From Thermoanaerobacterium aotearoense (GTDB taxonomy: Bacteria; Bacillota; Thermoanaerobacteria; Thermoanaerobacterales; Thermoanaerobacteraceae): a DNA stretch of 64,000 bases. This document shows, one piece after another, positions 9,936 through 57,231 of this stretch (positions within the stretch are counted from its first letter, which is position 1; each line of letters opens with the position of its first letter). The notes beneath the pieces were generated by a model that was not told the origin of the DNA, did not search any database, and saw only the letters and a program-made list of their open reading frames with translations. The position numbers and the translations under genes are program-made. The DNA is taken from positions 372,001-436,000 of the forward strand of contig NZ_CP047602.1 in NCBI RefSeq assembly GCF_009905255.1. The letters run 5' to 3'.

Positions 9936-11052
9936 TTACCCATTTTGCAAAAAATTTTTCATTTTATGTTTTGTGTCCTCCATAAGCGTGTTTGTGACAT
10001 CTGTGTAAATATCCATTGTTGTTTGAAATCTTGCATGACCCAGAAGTCTTTGTGCAGCTTTTGGGTGTACACCACGTTCTGCTAACTTTGTTGCATAAGT
10101 GTGGCGTAGCACATGCGGACTTGCGGAGGGCACACCTGCTTCTTCACGAATTTTCTTAAACATCACTGCAATTGTTACAGGGTTCAGTGGTGTTCCTTTA
10201 GAAGTAATAAACACAAAATCTGTATTTACATTTATAGCTTTTAGCCAGAGGTCATAAAGCTTTTTGTAATTTTCCATTACTGGCAAAGCATCATCTGGAA
10301 GCGGCACAGTCCTATAAGCATTGACTGTTTTTGTATCTGTTTCCATAAAGCTATAATGACCATCTGGTTGACGTGTGTATTGTATTTGACGGTTTACTGT
10401 GATTGTTTTGTTTTCAAAGTCAATGTCAGACCATTTCAACCCAAGCAGTTCACCCCGGCGTAAACCAGTGGTCATTGCCAAAACAATGTACGGATAGATA
10501 AAATACTTTTTAGCGGTTTCTAAAAATCTGTCCCGTTCCTCTGGTGTAAGGGACTTCCGCTTTTTCAGTTTTGGCATAGGGTGGTTAGTGCCTTCATCTG
10601 GGTTTTCTTTTATTATGCGTTGTTTTACAGCTAATTTTAGGGCAGCCTTCACAATTATATAGATATTGTATAGTACCCCTGGTTTATCAATTAAAGAATT
10701 ATAGAGCATTTGCAATTGTGTTGGTTGTAACTGTTGTACTAAAATACTACCGATAGAGGGGTCGATGTACTTTTGTATTTTCTGGAGATAATTATTATAA
10801 GTTGTTTGGCTGATGTTATATTTTTTATACACATCAAGCCATGTATGAACTAATTGTGATACAGTTATTGTGTTTGGGTCAACATATTCCCCAGACAAAG
10901 CTTGAAGTTGTAGTTCTCTTATTTTAGTAACAACGTCCTGTTTTCGGCGTCCATACACAGTTTTGCGTTTACCATTGATAGTGTTGTCCAGCCCATGTTC
11001 CGTTAGGACGCTGATATATAGTTCCTTCTCCGTTAGCACGACGTTTAGGCAT
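9936..11052 (-). pseudogene. Tyrosine integrase with an N-terminal frameshift
   Basis: The catalytic part is intact: an N-terminal core-binding domain, then TTGLRRGELLGLKW (first Arg), HVLRHTYATKLAERG (His-x-x-Arg) and LLGHARFQTTMDIYTD (His and the Tyr nucleophile). The expected start is ATG at 11052-11050, which overlaps the repressor stop and begins MPKRRANGEGTIYQRPNGTW, the usual opening of this integrase family. That frame stops after 27 codons, and the rest (from about DNTINGKRKTVYGRR) is in another frame, consistent with a small deletion near 10980-10995. Translation from the GTG at 11039 would give a 367-residue protein with a wrong N-terminus. Probably inactive or impaired. Confidence 0.8.
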
Positions 11053-11866
11053 TTAGCTCACCTGCCACTTTGTATGGTCTGGGTTCTTTTAATACAGCTA
11101 CTACCTTTCCCACAATACGGAATTTATCTGTGAATGGTATCGGTTTATAATCTGGGTTGGCAGGCATGAGAAAATACTGATTGCCTTTCTGCACAAAATA
11201 CTTGATAGTAACTTCACCTTCCTCAGTGGCTGCTATAACCATATCACCATGTTCTGCCGTTGCGCTGGAGGTAACAAAAACAGTATCTCCGTCATCAATG
11301 CCTGCATATATCATGCTATCACCCTTTATGGTGACTGCAAAGTCAACTTCGTAATCTGACGGTGTTACTACCCAATCTGCGATGTTGTCAGTTCCAACAC
11401 TATTAGGATACCCAGCAGGTATTCTGTTGTCATATAAAGGTACATAGTTTATGGGCTTGCTCTCAAGCAGGATTTTCTTTAAGGTTTCTTTCGCAGTTTC
11501 GACTGTTTTTGAAGCTTCATTTAATCTATTGACAAAATTCGGTATTTCATTAAAAGAAGCCTTTGCGATTTCACCTTTAATTTTTTCAAAGCTTTTTACA
11601 GCGTTGTTGTAGCTCTCCAATATTGTACTAATGTTTTCATCAGGTGTGCTATTCATTAGCTCACTTTCAGGTATGTTAAAGTAACTTGACAATTTTTGTA
11701 TTACTTCTCTGCTTGGGTTTCTTTTGCCAGACAAGTATTTGATTATGGTTACTTCTGCCACATCTGCAATTGAAGCTAACTGTTTATTTGTTAGATTGTG
11801 CATTTCTTTTAAGCGTCTTAGAGTAATGCTAAAGTTGTTGTTGTTATTGTTATTGTTATTGTTCAT
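11045..11866 (-). CDS. XRE/S24 (CI/LexA-like) repressor of the element
   Basis: 273 residues from the second of two consecutive ATGs (11866), with GGAGG 6 bases upstream. Residues about 12-68 form an XRE helix-turn-helix (NKQLASIADVAEVTIIKYLSGKRNPS); about 75-135 is a helical linker; the C-terminal half is an S24 peptidase with an Ala-Gly cleavage site (IPAGYPNS), the Ser in GDSMIYAGI and the Lys in EVTIKYF. Such repressors self-cleave when RecA filaments form and so release a mobile element under SOS. The N-terminus is a run of about ten Asn encoded by AAC/AAT repeats. It overlaps the original integrase start by 8 bases, so the two were coupled. Confidence 0.85.
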   Translation of the reverse strand: MNNNNNNNNNNFSITLRRLKEMHNLTNKQLASIADVAEVTIIKYLSGKRNPSREVIQKLSSYFNIPESELMNSTPDENISTILESYNNAVKSFEKIKGEIAKASFNEIPNFVNRLNEASKTVETAKETLKKILLESKPINYVPLYDNRIPAGYPNSVGTDNIADWVVTPSDYEVDFAVTIKGDSMIYAGIDDGDTVFVTSSATAEHGDMVIAATEEGEVTIKYFVQKGNQYFLMPANPDYKPIPFTDKFRIVGKVVAVLKEPRPYKVAGELNA

Positions 11867-11925
11867 CATAAGCCTCCTTTCATAAAATTAAAATTTGTAT
11901 TTTATGTACTTGGCATACTGTATAA

Positions 11926-52156: not shown

Positions 52157-55100
52157 ATGAATAACAAAAAAGGTATTGTTGCATTTATTATTATCCTAAC
52201 TATGATTTTTTCAAATTTGACATTTGTAGATGCAAACATATCACAAATTGGTTCATTACAAACCACTACAAATTTTTATGTTAACCCAATACCAGGACTT
52301 AGATCGGATTTTATAAAAGGCGCAGATGTTTCTATGTTATCTCAAATAGAGCAATGTGGAGGCAAATTTTATGATAATGGCGTGGAAAAAGATCTTTTGC
52401 AAATTCTCAAAGATCATGGTGTTAACTGGATTCGTCTTAGAATTTGGAATAATCCGGTAGATTCTAATGGGAATCCATTGGGAGGAGGCAATAACGATGA
52501 GAAAAGAACAATAGAAATGGCAAAAAGAGCTAAGATACTTGGATTAAAGCTGCTGCTAGATTTTCATTATAGCGATTTTTGGGCCGATCCTGGGAAACAA
52601 AACAAGCCAGCAGCTTGGGCTAATGATCATGGTGTGAAACTTCAAGAAGATGTATATGATTTTACAGCTAAAGTTATAAATGATATGAAAAATAATGGCG
52701 TATTACCAGATATGGTTCAAATAGGAAATGAAATAGATAATGGTATTTTATGGCCTGATGGTGAGATTTCAGGAGAGGGAGCAGGTGGATATTCCGGACT
52801 TGCAGCTCTATTACAGCAAGGTATTAAAGCCGTAAGAGATAATGATCCAAACAATAATGATCCAGAAAAAAGAATAAAAATCATGATACATTTGTCAAAT
52901 GGAGGCAATAATACGCTTTATCGCTCGTTCTTTGATAATTTAATTTACAATCAGGGAGTTACAGATTTTGATGTTATAGGGCTTTCATATTATCCATATT
53001 GGAGTGGAACACTTGATGAATTGAAAAATAATATTAATGATATAAGTCAAAGGTATAATAAAGATATTGTTATTGCTGAAACTGCATATGCTTATACATT
53101 GAGTAATGCTGATAATACTGAAAATAACTTTGGAAGCAAGGAAGAAGCAATTGGAGGATATAAAGCATCTATTGAAGGACAAGCTACTGCAATTAGAGAT
53201 GTGATGGCAGCTGTGTCACAGGTTCCAAATAATAAAGGGTTAGGTATTTTTTACTGGGAACCAGATTGGATTCCAGTTGTTGGAGCGGGATGGAAAACAG
53301 GTGAAGGTGATGGGTGGGAAAATCAAGCGTTGTTTGACTTTAATGGTAATGCATTGCCATCAATTGATGTTTTTAACCTTGTGTCAGGCACCCAAGGAAC
53401 TATAATTCCACAAGCATTATCTATAGAACCCGTAAACGTATCAACAACAGTTAACCAGGCACCTGTATTGCCAACAACTGTAAATATAGTCTATGATGAT
53501 GGATCTGTTAAACCGGCATCGGTTACTTGGGAAAATATTGATTCAAGTAAATATGCTCAGCCGGGAAATTTTACTATAACAGGTACGGTTTTTGGCATAA
53601 GATATAAAGCGATAGCTACTGTTGCGGTAACAAGTTTAATAAATTATGTGCAAAATCCAGGATTTGAAGATGGATCATTAGCAAATTGGAATGTATCAGG
53701 AGATACATCAGCAGTAAAAATTGATAAAAATGCTGCTAATGCGCATTCAGGTAAATATTCGTTGAATTATTGGAGTGATAGGGCATTTACAGTTACAATA
53801 TCGCAAACAATAACTGGGCTAAAAAATGGATATTATCAATTGAGTGCGTACGTAGATGGTGGTGGAGGTGAAAATAGTTTACAGTTATTTGCAAGTGATT
53901 ATGGTGGTTCCAAGTTAGCTGCAGATGTGCATAATTCAGGATGGCTTGTATGGCAACATCCTACTATTCCATTAATTAAAGTGACTAATGGTCAAGTTAC
54001 AGTTGGGTTAACTATCAATGGAAATAGTGGCAATTGGGGTAATTTTGATGATATACAACTTATTCAAGTCGATGATTCTGGTAATCCGATTGGTGGACCA
54101 GCGTCAACAGTTTTGACAACACCTTCTTATATAAATAGTGGTGATGTATTTGAGATCGATTATGGATTAAAAGATGTATCACAAATAATTTACGCACAGG
54201 AAATCATAATAAACTATGATCCGCAAATTTTTGATTTTGCAAAAGCTACTGCAACAGATGATAATACTATAATTTCAAAGGTATATAATGAAATACCAGG
54301 AACTATTGTAATTGATGTTGTAAATAGCAAAGGGTTAACATCAGATACAAATTTAATTAGTCTAACATTTAGAGCAAAAGTGATTGATCAATTAACGTAT
54401 AGTAATATTTCAGTTTCAGAAGCTAAATTGCAAACTACTAATGACGGAAGTAATTATATTGATGCCGCACTGTCAAGTACTACAATTGCTGTAGAAGGAA
54501 TAGCGACAATGACATTATCGTCACCAAATTCGGTGCTTGCAGGGGAAGATTTTACTGCAGAGATAGATATATCTGATGTTTCTCAAGCAGTATATAGCCA
54601 TGATATTATATTAAATTATGATCCTAGGGTATTTGAAGTTTTAAGTTTAGATAACGTTGGAAATTCGATGATTATAGATAGTAATTATGATAATTCACAA
54701 GGAATTGCTAAGATTTTAGGAGTTGATATTGGTGGATTAAATGGTGCAAATGCTGACATAATAAAGCTTACTATACATGCTAAAAAAATCTCACAATCTA
54801 CCAGTGGTTATATTATGATTAGAAGTGCGCAATTAGGGACAGCGCCAGAAGGCAACATTATATTTCCTAAATTGACAAGTACAAGCATAAAAATTATTAG
54901 TGCAAATGTCGGGAATGATGAAAATTGGACAGGAACAACAAATACCAATAGTGGAAATACAAATAATTTGGTTTATGATGGTGAAATATCAGTAAAGCCA
55001 TCTGTTGATTATCTTAACGGCATTTCTACAGTATCTTTAAATGTTGACGATTTAAACAGAGCTATGAAAAGTGCTAAAACCAGTGAAGATGGGACAAAAA

Positions 55101-56152
55101 ATGTTGTAATAAGTATACCTAAAGTTGATGGTTTGAAACAGTACGATATTAAATTCCCAGCGTCGTTTTTAGCATCAAATGATGAAAAGCAGGAAGTTCA
55201 ACTTACAATGGGGATTGCTACAGTTATAATTCCGACTAATATATTTAATGAAAATGAAATAAAACAATCAAAAGAAATAACTTTTAGCTTCAAAAACATT
55301 GATAAGTCAGAATTAAGTAATGAATTAAAACAGTTTGATATTATTGGAACAGGCATAGACTTTGGTATAAAGATAGATGGTACTAGTATTTCTTGGAATA
55401 ATCCTGATTCACATGTAGTGATAAAAATTCCTTATACACCTACTGCTGGGGAATTGAAAGATTTGGATCATATTGTTGTGTTGTATATTGATGACAATGG
55501 TTCAGTTTCATCAATACCAAACTCTATGTATGATACTAAATCAGGTGAATTGATATTTAGAACAATACATTCAGGAAAATATGTAGAAGCATTTATTCAT
55601 AAAACATTTAGTGATATAAGAGGCAATTGGGCTCAAAATGCAATAGAAGTTCTTGCATCTAAAGGTGTTACTAACGGTACATCAAAGAACTTGTTTAGTC
55701 CGAATCTTAAGATAACTAGGGCAGATTATATAACTATGCTTTTGACAGCCCTTGGGTTGACTGCGAAAGTTGATCAGAATTTTAGTGACATTCAGGCATC
55801 AAATTACTATTATAATTCTGTTGGAATAGCTAAAAAACTTGGAATTGTTTCAGGAGTTGGTGATAACAAATTTGATCCTAATGATTCTATTAAAAGAGAA
55901 GATATGTTCGTAATGACTGCTAATGCTCTTAAGTTGCTTGGCATATTAAACTCAACGGGAACAAGTTATGATTTAAATAAATTCACAGATATAAATGATA
56001 TATCATCGTATGCAGTTGAAAGTATTGCCACACTTGTTAAATCAGGTATAGTAAATGGTAAAGATAATAATAAGATTGACCCTAGAAATTATGCAACTAG
56101 AGCAGAAGCTGCAGCAGTTATTTATAATGTAATAAAAGACTTAGAAAAGTGA
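52157..56152 (+). CDS. Surface-anchored GH53 endo-beta-1,4-galactanase with two cohesin-like modules and SLH repeats
   Basis: 1331 residues, ATG 52157 after AGGAGG. Signal peptide about 1-27. GH53 domain about 45-410: GADVSMLSQIEQCGGKFYDNG, HGVNWIRLRIWNNP, acid/base Glu192 in MVQIGNEIDNG, nucleophile Glu308 in IVIAETAYAYT. Then a Big_4-type Ig-like domain (about 415-493), a CBM61-like galactan-binding domain (about 495-640; NPGFEDGSLANWNVSGD, LQLFASDYGG), two cohesin-like modules (about 650-783 and 785-913), a spacer domain (about 935-1150), and three SLH repeats (about 1152-1331; FSDIRGNWAQNAIEVLASKGVTNG first). SLH anchors the protein to cell-wall polymer. The cohesin-like modules could bind the dockerin encoded by the next gene. 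Much more AT-rich than the uronate genes. Confidence 0.85.
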   Translation: MNNKKGIVAFIIILTMIFSNLTFVDANISQIGSLQTTTNFYVNPIPGLRSDFIKGADVSMLSQIEQCGGKFYDNGVEKDLLQILKDHGVNWIRLRIWNNPVDSNGNPLGGGNNDEKRTIEMAKRAKILGLKLLLDFHYSDFWADPGKQNKPAAWANDHGVKLQEDVYDFTAKVINDMKNNGVLPDMVQIGNEIDNGILWPDGEISGEGAGGYSGLAALLQQGIKAVRDNDPNNNDPEKRIKIMIHLSNGGNNTLYRSFFDNLIYNQGVTDFDVIGLSYYPYWSGTLDELKNNINDISQRYNKDIVIAETAYAYTLSNADNTENNFGSKEEAIGGYKASIEGQATAIRDVMAAVSQVPNNKGLGIFYWEPDWIPVVGAGWKTGEGDGWENQALFDFNGNALPSIDVFNLVSGTQGTIIPQALSIEPVNVSTTVNQAPVLPTTVNIVYDDGSVKPASVTWENIDSSKYAQPGNFTITGTVFGIRYKAIATVAVTSLINYVQNPGFEDGSLANWNVSGDTSAVKIDKNAANAHSGKYSLNYWSDRAFTVTISQTITGLKNGYYQLSAYVDGGGGENSLQLFASDYGGSKLAADVHNSGWLVWQHPTIPLIKVTNGQVTVGLTINGNSGNWGNFDDIQLIQVDDSGNPIGGPASTVLTTPSYINSGDVFEIDYGLKDVSQIIYAQEIIINYDPQIFDFAKATATDDNTIISKVYNEIPGTIVIDVVNSKGLTSDTNLISLTFRAKVIDQLTYSNISVSEAKLQTTNDGSNYIDAALSSTTIAVEGIATMTLSSPNSVLAGEDFTAEIDISDVSQAVYSHDIILNYDPRVFEVLSLDNVGNSMIIDSNYDNSQGIAKILGVDIGGLNGANADIIKLTIHAKKISQSTSGYIMIRSAQLGTAPEGNIIFPKLTSTSIKIISANVGNDENWTGTTNTNSGNTNNLVYDGEISVKPSVDYLNGISTVSLNVDDLNRAMKSAKTSEDGTKNVVISIPKVDGLKQYDIKFPASFLASNDEKQEVQLTMGIATVIIPTNIFNENEIKQSKEITFSFKNIDKSELSNELKQFDIIGTGIDFGIKIDGTSISWNNPDSHVVIKIPYTPTAGELKDLDHIVVLYIDDNGSVSSIPNSMYDTKSGELIFRTIHSGKYVEAFIHKTFSDIRGNWAQNAIEVLASKGVTNGTSKNLFSPNLKITRADYITMLLTALGLTAKVDQNFSDIQASNYYYNSVGIAKKLGIVSGVGDNKFDPNDSIKREDMFVMTANALKLLGILNSTGTSYDLNKFTDINDISSYAVESIATLVKSGIVNGKDNNKIDPRNYATRAEAAAVIYNVIKDLEK

Positions 56153-56163
56153 TTAATATAATT

Positions 56164-56198
56164 TGTAGTGCATAATATTTTAATTATTATGCACTACA
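56164..56198 (+). repeat. 14-bp stem-loop between galactanase and dockerin genes
   Basis: TGTAGTGCATAATA (56164-56177) and its exact complement (56185-56198) around a 7-base loop; no T-run follows, so it is probably an mRNA processing or stability element or a partial terminator. Confidence 0.7.
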
Positions 56199-56271
56199 TG
56201 ATTGAAATATTTGTAAGAATTTATAAAATAGATTCTGATTAAATAAAATGAATTGATTAGGAGGAATATTC

Positions 56272-57231
56272 ATGAATAAGATTCTAAAAATATTTTCCGT
56301 TTTTTTAGGTGCTTTTTTGATTTTTGTTAACATGTCAATAAATGAAGCAAAAGCTGATCCTGTTAATCTTGTGCAAAATTCTAGTTTTGAATCTGGCTTA
56401 GATAATTGGACTATTGTACAAAGTCAAAGTAATATAGCTTCTATTGATTCTTCTGGCAAGCCTGAAGAAATAAAATCGGGTAATAATTCTCTTGCAATTT
56501 ATTATAATTCAAGTTATACATTCAAAATCTCACAAACTATTTCAAATATACCAAATGGTATATATTCTTTAACAGTCTATGCAGAAGGTGACCCATCTGA
56601 AGGCAATGCAAATATACAATTGTTTGCAAGCGATTATGGTGGAGCACAAATAACTACTAATATAATTAATACGGGGTGGGGGAAATGGGTACAATATTCA
56701 ATTAATAATATTGATGTTACTACAGGGACATGTACAATAGGAATTCAGGTAGAAACGAATGGGTCTTATTGGGGCACGTTTGATGATTTTTCATTTACTA
56801 TGACAAGTGAATCAAATATACCACCCACAATTACTTCTATAAAACCCATAAATGTAAATACAATAATTAATAATCCACCTCAACTTCCTACTACTGTAAC
56901 AGCTGTATACAGTGACGGCTCTATCAGACAAGTGAATGTAACTTGGGATGCGGTTGATCCAATAGATTATCAGCATATTCAATCATTTAATGTTTATGGG
57001 ACAGTCGATGATTCGGTATATAAGGCTCAGGCAATTGTTACAGTTAACTATAAATCTATGGATTTAAATAATAATGGCATTGTTGATATTGGAGATTTAG
57101 CTATTGCAACATATTACTATCAGATAGAATCAAATGATTCTAATTGGAAAAGTGCTAGTTTAGCTGATATTAATAATGATGGAATAGTTAATTTGCAAGA
57201 TTTAAAAATAATAGCGCAGCAAATATTTTGA
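56272..57231 (+). CDS. Secreted CBM61-like protein with C-terminal type I dockerin
   Basis: 319 residues, ATG 56272 after AGGAGG. Signal peptide about 1-28 (ends NEAKA). CBM61-like domain about 32-185 (NSSFESGLDNWTIVQ, LQLFASDYGG-like block NIQLFASDYGGAQI), Big_4-type domain about 190-262 (PPQLPTTVTAVYSDGSIRQVNVTWDAVDP), both parallel to those in the preceding galactanase. Residues 264-319 are a type I dockerin: DLNNNGIVDIGD and DINNDGIVNLQD, each with Ca2+ ligands at positions 1, 3, 5 and 12. No catalytic domain. It follows the cohesin-bearing gene by 119 bases with a stem-loop in between, so a protein-protein pair is the natural reading. Confidence 0.85.
   Translation: MNKILKIFSVFLGAFLIFVNMSINEAKADPVNLVQNSSFESGLDNWTIVQSQSNIASIDSSGKPEEIKSGNNSLAIYYNSSYTFKISQTISNIPNGIYSLTVYAEGDPSEGNANIQLFASDYGGAQITTNIINTGWGKWVQYSINNIDVTTGTCTIGIQVETNGSYWGTFDDFSFTMTSESNIPPTITSIKPINVNTIINNPPQLPTTVTAVYSDGSIRQVNVTWDAVDPIDYQHIQSFNVYGTVDDSVYKAQAIVTVNYKSMDLNNNGIVDIGDLAIATYYYQIESNDSNWKSASLADINNDGIVNLQDLKIIAQQIF

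Follow-up and report, generated by a model that had tools for sequence, protein, structure and literature searches.

Do two adjacent genes of Thermoanaerobacterium aotearoense, one for a galactanase with cohesin-like modules and the other for a dockerin protein, encode a dedicated surface complex, and does such a complex belong with the cellulosomes or with a simpler kind of assembly? The pair lies in the window, the 64,000-nucleotide stretch of DNA analyzed here, which also encodes a GH28, a GH88-type protein, a uronate isomerase, a mannitol-dehydrogenase-family oxidoreductase, KduI, a short-chain dehydrogenase, a sugar ABC importer, a GH2, and a LacI-type regulator, a gene content consistent with the use of pectin and galactan. 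Elsewhere in the window, an integrase-like gene (9936-11039) adjoins a repressor-like gene (11045-11869, minus strand) whose product starts with ten asparagines, a possible slippage-prone tract.

Module organization of the galactanase and its partner

The original prediction described a GH53 enzyme with cohesin-like modules and SLH repeats, followed by a dockerin protein, and the open reading frames and domain orders that it gave were recovered by ORF analysis, Pfam, and PDB relatives (Table 1).

Table 1. Features of the galactanase (scaffold) gene, the partner gene, and the sequence between them, in window positions.
Feature	Positions	Strand	Evidence
Scaffold/enzyme gene, 1331 aa: SP-GH53-Big_4-CBM61-Coh1-Coh2-X-SLHx3	52157..56152	+	ORF, Pfam, PDB relatives
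GH53 endo-beta-1,4-galactanase domain, residues 53-406	52313..53374	+	PF07745, E 1.9e-136, 455 bits
Scaffold Big_4 Ig-like domain, residues 423-480	53423..53596	+	PF07532, 60.7 bits
Scaffold CBM61 module (putative beta-1,4-galactan binding), ~residues 490-645	53624..54091	+	PDB relatives 2xom, 9fli
Cohesin 1, residues 648-780	54098..54496	+	PF00963, 40.1 bits
Cohesin 2, residues 781-917	54497..54907	+	PF00963, 46.8 bits; AF2 model; PDB fold match
Unnamed module X, ~residues 941-1149, before SLH repeats	54977..55603	+	Matches in SLH proteins of the genus
Three SLH repeats, ~residues 1150-1331	55604..56149	+	PF00395, 3 stretches, 118.6 bits
Intergenic hairpin between scaffold and partner genes	56160..56203	+	dG -19.3 kcal/mol, z -5.85
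Partner gene, 319 aa: SP-CBM61-Big_4-Dockerin	56272..57231	+	ORF, Pfam, PDB relatives
Partner CBM61 module	56359..56823	+	PDB 9fli E 1.5e-24, 2xom E 1.4e-15
Partner Big_4 domain, residues 190-247	56839..57012	+	PF07532, 59.6 bits
Type I dockerin, residues 263-319, two Ca2+-loop repeats	57058..57228	+	PF00404, 33.6 bits

The enzyme domain combines the GH53 family profile with the conserved catalytic segments, and its nearest solved structure is 7osk (E 4.6e-123), with which the QIGNE and AETAY segments align. Both chains carry a CBM61 module related in sequence to the characterized 2xom/2xon (for the scaffold module, 2xom at E 1e-33 and 9fli at E 1.1e-34), and the two modules would be expected, by analogy with their family, to bind beta-1,4-galactan. 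The C-terminal region of the scaffold that includes module X (approximately residues 910-1327) has 28-33% matches in many SLH proteins of the genus. A structure model of the partner, computed from a single sequence, was poor (pLDDT 49) and was left out of the evidence.

The genome, a single 2.67-Mb contig with a completeness rating of 100%, contains no cohesins beyond the galactanase's two (PF00963, E up to 1) and no dockerin beyond the partner's (PF00404); a purpose-built dockerin profile found no second dockerin there even at E<=10. The sole cohesin protein is thus a GH53 enzyme instead of a non-catalytic multi-cohesin scaffoldin, and the sole dockerin sits on a non-catalytic protein, with no set of docked enzymes in the genome. 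Two traits that define a cellulosome are therefore lacking, which agrees with the earlier view that the unit is unlike one.

Cohesins, dockerin, and the binding face

Residues 650-913 of the scaffold had been proposed to hold the two cohesins. Scanned as isolated modules, both score well above the PF00963 cut-off of 24.1 bits (Table 1), and the genome-wide scan finds the same two at 39.3 and 46 bits. The Pfam scan of the entire scaffold protein did not list PF00963, and the modules were rescanned separately; this is probably a filter effect, since the orthologue in one related genome, G034, scores for both cohesins in a whole-protein scan. A profile built from seven modules of the four pair-bearing genomes described below finds, as its best PDB match, the C. 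perfringens NagJ cohesin (E 1.4e-7), followed by the sialidase cohesin 2VO8 (2.2e-5) and then C. thermocellum OlpA (0.02). An AF2 model of Cohesin 2 (pLDDT 86) agrees: cohesins fill the first 14 places among its PDB fold matches, with 2VO8 at TM 0.86 and E 3.5e-10, and these 14 include the Archaeoglobus cohesin as well as OlpA and C. acetobutylicum cohesins that were solved with dockerin bound, while other beta-sandwich folds rank well behind. The predicted fold of Cohesin 2 is that of the cohesin beta-sandwich, and the outcome that would have spoken against the prediction, matches to generic Ig domains only, did not occur, as cohesins lead both the profile and the fold matches. A by-hand comparison of Cohesin 1 with Cohesin 2 gave approximately 37% identity in strands 3, 5, 6, and 8, which we take to be the ones facing the dockerin, versus approximately 26% in the others, a difference that does not discriminate.

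The C-terminus of the partner is likewise a dockerin by profile, scoring above the PF00404 cut-off of 22.9 bits in the isolated-module scan (Table 1). Its two repeats, DLNNNGIVDIGD and DINNDGIVNLQD, form the duplicated Ca2+-binding loop-helix arrangement, and both Ca2+ loops are present as anticipated, with D-x-N-x-N-G in repeat 1, where position 5 is N, not D. Positions 10 and 11 are also as first read, I-G in repeat 1 and L-Q in repeat 2, and the two-fold symmetry of binding positions that typifies dockerins borne by cellulosomal enzymes is absent, as far as sequence can tell. Across four orthologues, these positions read I-G, I-G, V-G, and I-G in repeat 1, and L-Q, L-K, L-I, and T-N in repeat 2. 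The conserved first repeat and the variable second one suggest binding in a single mode, which has been reported for several dockerins outside cellulosomes, the one of C. perfringens among them (PMC5429695). The private specificity that had been read from positions 10 and 11 is not supported: other dockerins of the genus have F-G, V-G, I-G, and I-A in repeat 1, and with such residues recurring there, I-G is no sign of a private code.

Distribution, conservation, and constraint

Within a class sample of 37 genomes, cohesins above the Pfam cut-off occur in the window genome (G000), its sister genome (G014), G015, G017, and G034, and dockerins above the cut-off occur in these same genomes and in G032; 31 of the 37 have neither. 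The co-occurrence gives a Fisher p of 1.4e-5, to be read with the caution that the genomes are related and so not independent. We take the pairing of cohesins and dockerin not to be due to chance, since the dockerin is the only one in its genome and the two domains match in occurrence across the 37 genomes. The adjacent gene pair itself is found in 4/37 genomes belonging to three families (G000, G014, G034, and G032), each with a single dockerin. In G032, the galactanase has one divergent cohesin-like module that falls below PF00963 detection and is identified by position and alignment only.

Conservation differs between the parts. Relative to the window, the GH53 domain of the scaffold is 97, 84, and 70% identical in G014, G034, and G032, respectively, and the partner 94, 71, and 41%, while Cohesin 2 is at 91, 51, and 30%, lower than GH53 throughout. 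The genes are separated by 119 bases in the window and in G014, by 16 in G032, and in G034 by approximately 20 to 40, according to which start codon is used. The gene neighborhoods of G034 and G032 are unlike that of the window, most of whose neighbors are found in the sister genome. The hairpin between the two genes is perfect in the G014 orthologue, and no second inverted pair of this kind occurs in the genome, which rules it out as a repeat element; it could act as an mRNA processing or stability element that sets how much partner is made relative to scaffold. In G034, the short gap shows no significant fold. Directly upstream of the SLH galactanase, G034 has a second GH53 of 353 aa, apparently lacking a signal peptide (L070:7905-8966), which suggests an enzyme that cuts imported galacto-oligosaccharides inside the cell.

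The partner carries a signal peptide and lacks both an anchor and a catalytic domain (the Pfam scan found no catalytic domain), features that would also suit a protein acting mainly as a free scout, with genuine cohesins and dockerin, that captures galactan at a distance from the cell and docks later, or docks on the scaffoldins of other community members; the scavenging of foreign dockerin proteins has been raised for Paenibacillus guangzhouensis scaffoldins (PMC11557425). We consider this unlikely, as the partner gene, wherever it occurs (four genomes), lies beside the gene for the galactanase with the cohesins, and a cognate partner is at hand in the galactanase, whose cohesins are the only ones in the genome.

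Some further genomes of the class, probably of Caldicellulosiruptor, encode GH53-Big4-CBM61-Big4-CBM61 as one chain with neither cohesin nor dockerin. These relatives hold the CBM61-Big_4 unit in cis, and the docked partner would therefore be its equivalent in trans. In a CBM61 tree, the window, G014, and G034 contribute their partner modules to one group and their scaffold modules to another (support 98/100 and 98/99), from which it follows that both kinds predate the split of these three genomes; the tree does not resolve the modules of G032. Outside the class, no CBM61-Big4-dockerin protein was found in a 399-genome phylum sample or in a species-level pattern scan. Full-length partner matches in the phylum sample come solely from G000 and G014, and the pattern scan, which took one genome from each of 84,980 species, returned three relatives, all with CBM61 on GH53 proteins that have no dockerin; that scan used narrow patterns and may not have covered close relatives of the window genome. 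A plasmid location for the pair is unsupported, plasmid matches being only distant and partial.

Further cohesins and dockerins were seen elsewhere in the sample. G017, of the same genus, has a separate surface cluster (L016:14433-16985 and L017:1881-10405) with an SLH-anchored cohesin protein (554 aa), a double 5'-nucleotidase with cohesin and dockerin (1480 aa), a metallophosphoesterase with a dockerin, and a 683-aa cohesin-dockerin protein that reads like a PHP-type phosphoesterase and has no Pfam match outside these two domains. This cluster looks aimed at phosphate esters or nucleotides, and its enzymes with both cohesin and dockerin could chain on the SLH anchor. In G015, also of the genus, a DUF4855/Big_2/cohesin-dockerin protein adjoins an SLH protein with a cohesin-like module (L019:41-3856); the locus is cut by a contig end, and the genome scan picked up both cohesins, which whole-protein Pfam missed. 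G036, a genome of the same order that has no dockerin, contains a sub-cut-off cohesin-like match of 21.2 bits in a 513-aa frame (G036:C50:17418-17738).

Selection was gauged by pairwise dN/dS between the window genome and G014, values that for short modules rest on few changes. GH53 is at approximately 0.075, the two CBM61 modules at 0.17 and 0.07, and the dockerin at approximately 0.13, which for the dockerin indicates purifying selection, while Cohesin 1 reaches approximately 0.78, Cohesin 2 approximately 0.59, and module X 0.60. The cohesins, above all Cohesin 1, are less constrained, the chief argument against the two being used equally; one of them may be degenerate or in part a spacer, given the relaxed constraint on Cohesin 1 between the sister genomes. 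Extended to both modules, whose 0.59-0.78 resembles the value of the adjacent X module, and joined with the high divergence of the cohesin-like module of G032, the same argument would have them act as structural spacers that keep GH53 and CBM61 off the wall, with a dockerin that does otherwise, e.g., self-associates, and no specific complex formed. We judge this quite improbable: cohesin and dockerin are matched in presence and absence across the 37 genomes, the fold matches put functional cohesins ahead of generic Ig-like domains, and the dockerin retains both Ca2+ loops under a low dN/dS.

Proposed assembly and its place among known systems

The pair is very likely a dedicated non-cellulosomal cohesin-dockerin unit, and we regard it as probable that both genes serve a single cell-wall-held, galactan-degrading assembly in which the partner is docked on the GH53 galactanase. 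We expect that the galactanase would be anchored through its SLH repeats with its two cohesins exposed, and that the secreted CBM61-Big_4-dockerin protein would plug into either or both, most likely by a single dockerin face centered on repeat 1. Docking would place up to two extra beta-1,4-galactan-binding modules beside the CBM61 of the enzyme, and the complex may thereby retain pectin's galactan side chains on the cell surface during their cleavage by GH53, with the products presumably going on to the neighboring ABC importer and GH2. The analysis establishes the identities of the domains, the cohesin fold of the second module (by prediction), the adjacency of the genes, the uniqueness of the cohesins and dockerin in the genome, the conservation of the pair, and the cis equivalents; we infer binding, its face, its stoichiometry, its Ca2+ dependence, and a higher galactan avidity of the pair. 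With a confidence only somewhat better than even, we further read the locus as a two-gene, self-anchored enzyme-scaffold whose dockerin protein recruits only extra CBMs, inherited as a private unit and standing in trans for the one-chain multi-CBM61 galactanases of relatives, with a conserved hairpin that may tune the ratio of partner to scaffold.

The domains confirm the module orders behind the original prediction of an enzyme acting as scaffold for a CBM-only partner; an enzyme as scaffold has precedents in A. cellulolyticus ScaA, R. bromii Amy4, and the C. perfringens glycoside hydrolases. Comparison with known systems places the pair as follows:

(i) C. perfringens glycoside hydrolases pair through cohesin and dockerin, as cited from Adams et al. 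in PMC12997984. There, the cohesin is borne on the enzyme, as in the window, and the pairing is pairwise instead of in arrays, as is also proposed for the window. The C. perfringens cohesins (2JH2, 2VO8) are the closest relatives of the window cohesins in sequence (E 1.4e-7) and fold (TM 0.86), and the C. perfringens dockerin, reported as single-mode (PMC5429695), parallels the asymmetry of the window dockerin at positions 10 and 11. C. perfringens joins glycoside hydrolases to one another on host glycans, whereas the window has a CBM61 and Ig-only dockerin partner directed at plant galactan, and its cohesin protein, unlike those pairs, is SLH-anchored and has two cohesins. Architecture and relatedness, known here from sequence and one cohesin model, fit a pairwise complex of this type.

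(ii) The amylosome of R. bromii also has an enzyme-borne cohesin (Amy4, GH13-CBM26-CBM26-Coh-Doc) and non-catalytic binding proteins with dockerins, such as Sas20 (PMC9112005), but it comprises five scaffoldins and 27 dockerin proteins and not a two-gene unit.

(iii) The ScaA scaffoldin of A. cellulolyticus bears its own catalytic module, a GH9 (PMC4217186), and resembles the window scaffold in this respect. ScaA belongs to a full cellulosome with many enzymes and reaches the surface via other SLH-bearing scaffoldins, whereas the window enzyme is self-anchored.

(iv) P. guangzhouensis has cohesin-bearing enzymes, including enzymes that carry both cohesin and dockerin, and SLH anchoring through cohesins (PMC11557425). 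It encodes 35 cohesin proteins with separate anchors, while the window unites anchor, enzyme, and cohesins in one chain. The same open survey of cellulosome bacteria makes no mention of Thermoanaerobacter, Thermoanaerobacterium, or Caldicellulosiruptor.

(v) Clocel_1455 of C. cellulovorans, with three CBM61 modules, shares with the window the combination of GH53 and CBM61 and the use of several CBM61 per enzyme (PMC4305082), and the GH53-CBM61 proteins of Paenibacillus and, likely, Caldicellulosiruptor have the same modules, with the additional CBM61 in the same chain. Neither cohesin nor dockerin occurs in the proteins compared from the class and from Paenibacillus, and Clocel_1455 is listed as non-cellulosomal (PMC4305082).

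Among open-licence papers, judged mostly by title and abstract, we found no description of an SLH-anchored enzyme with a CBM protein as its sole dockerin partner. Non-cellulosomal cohesin-dockerin units exist as discrete modules in the class, and the window pair, with one receptor and one ligand protein in the genome and the enzyme as anchor, may be roughly the smallest cohesin-dockerin system in nature. A related lineage appears to have built the same assembly by gene fusion, which opens a direct test of what docking gains over fusion, and the pair offers a probably thermophilic cohesin-dockerin tool for surface display. Enzyme-borne cohesins and non-catalytic dockerin proteins are each known separately; what is new is the self-anchored unit of one enzyme and one binder, best called a variant of the non-cellulosomal pairwise cohesin-dockerin complex.
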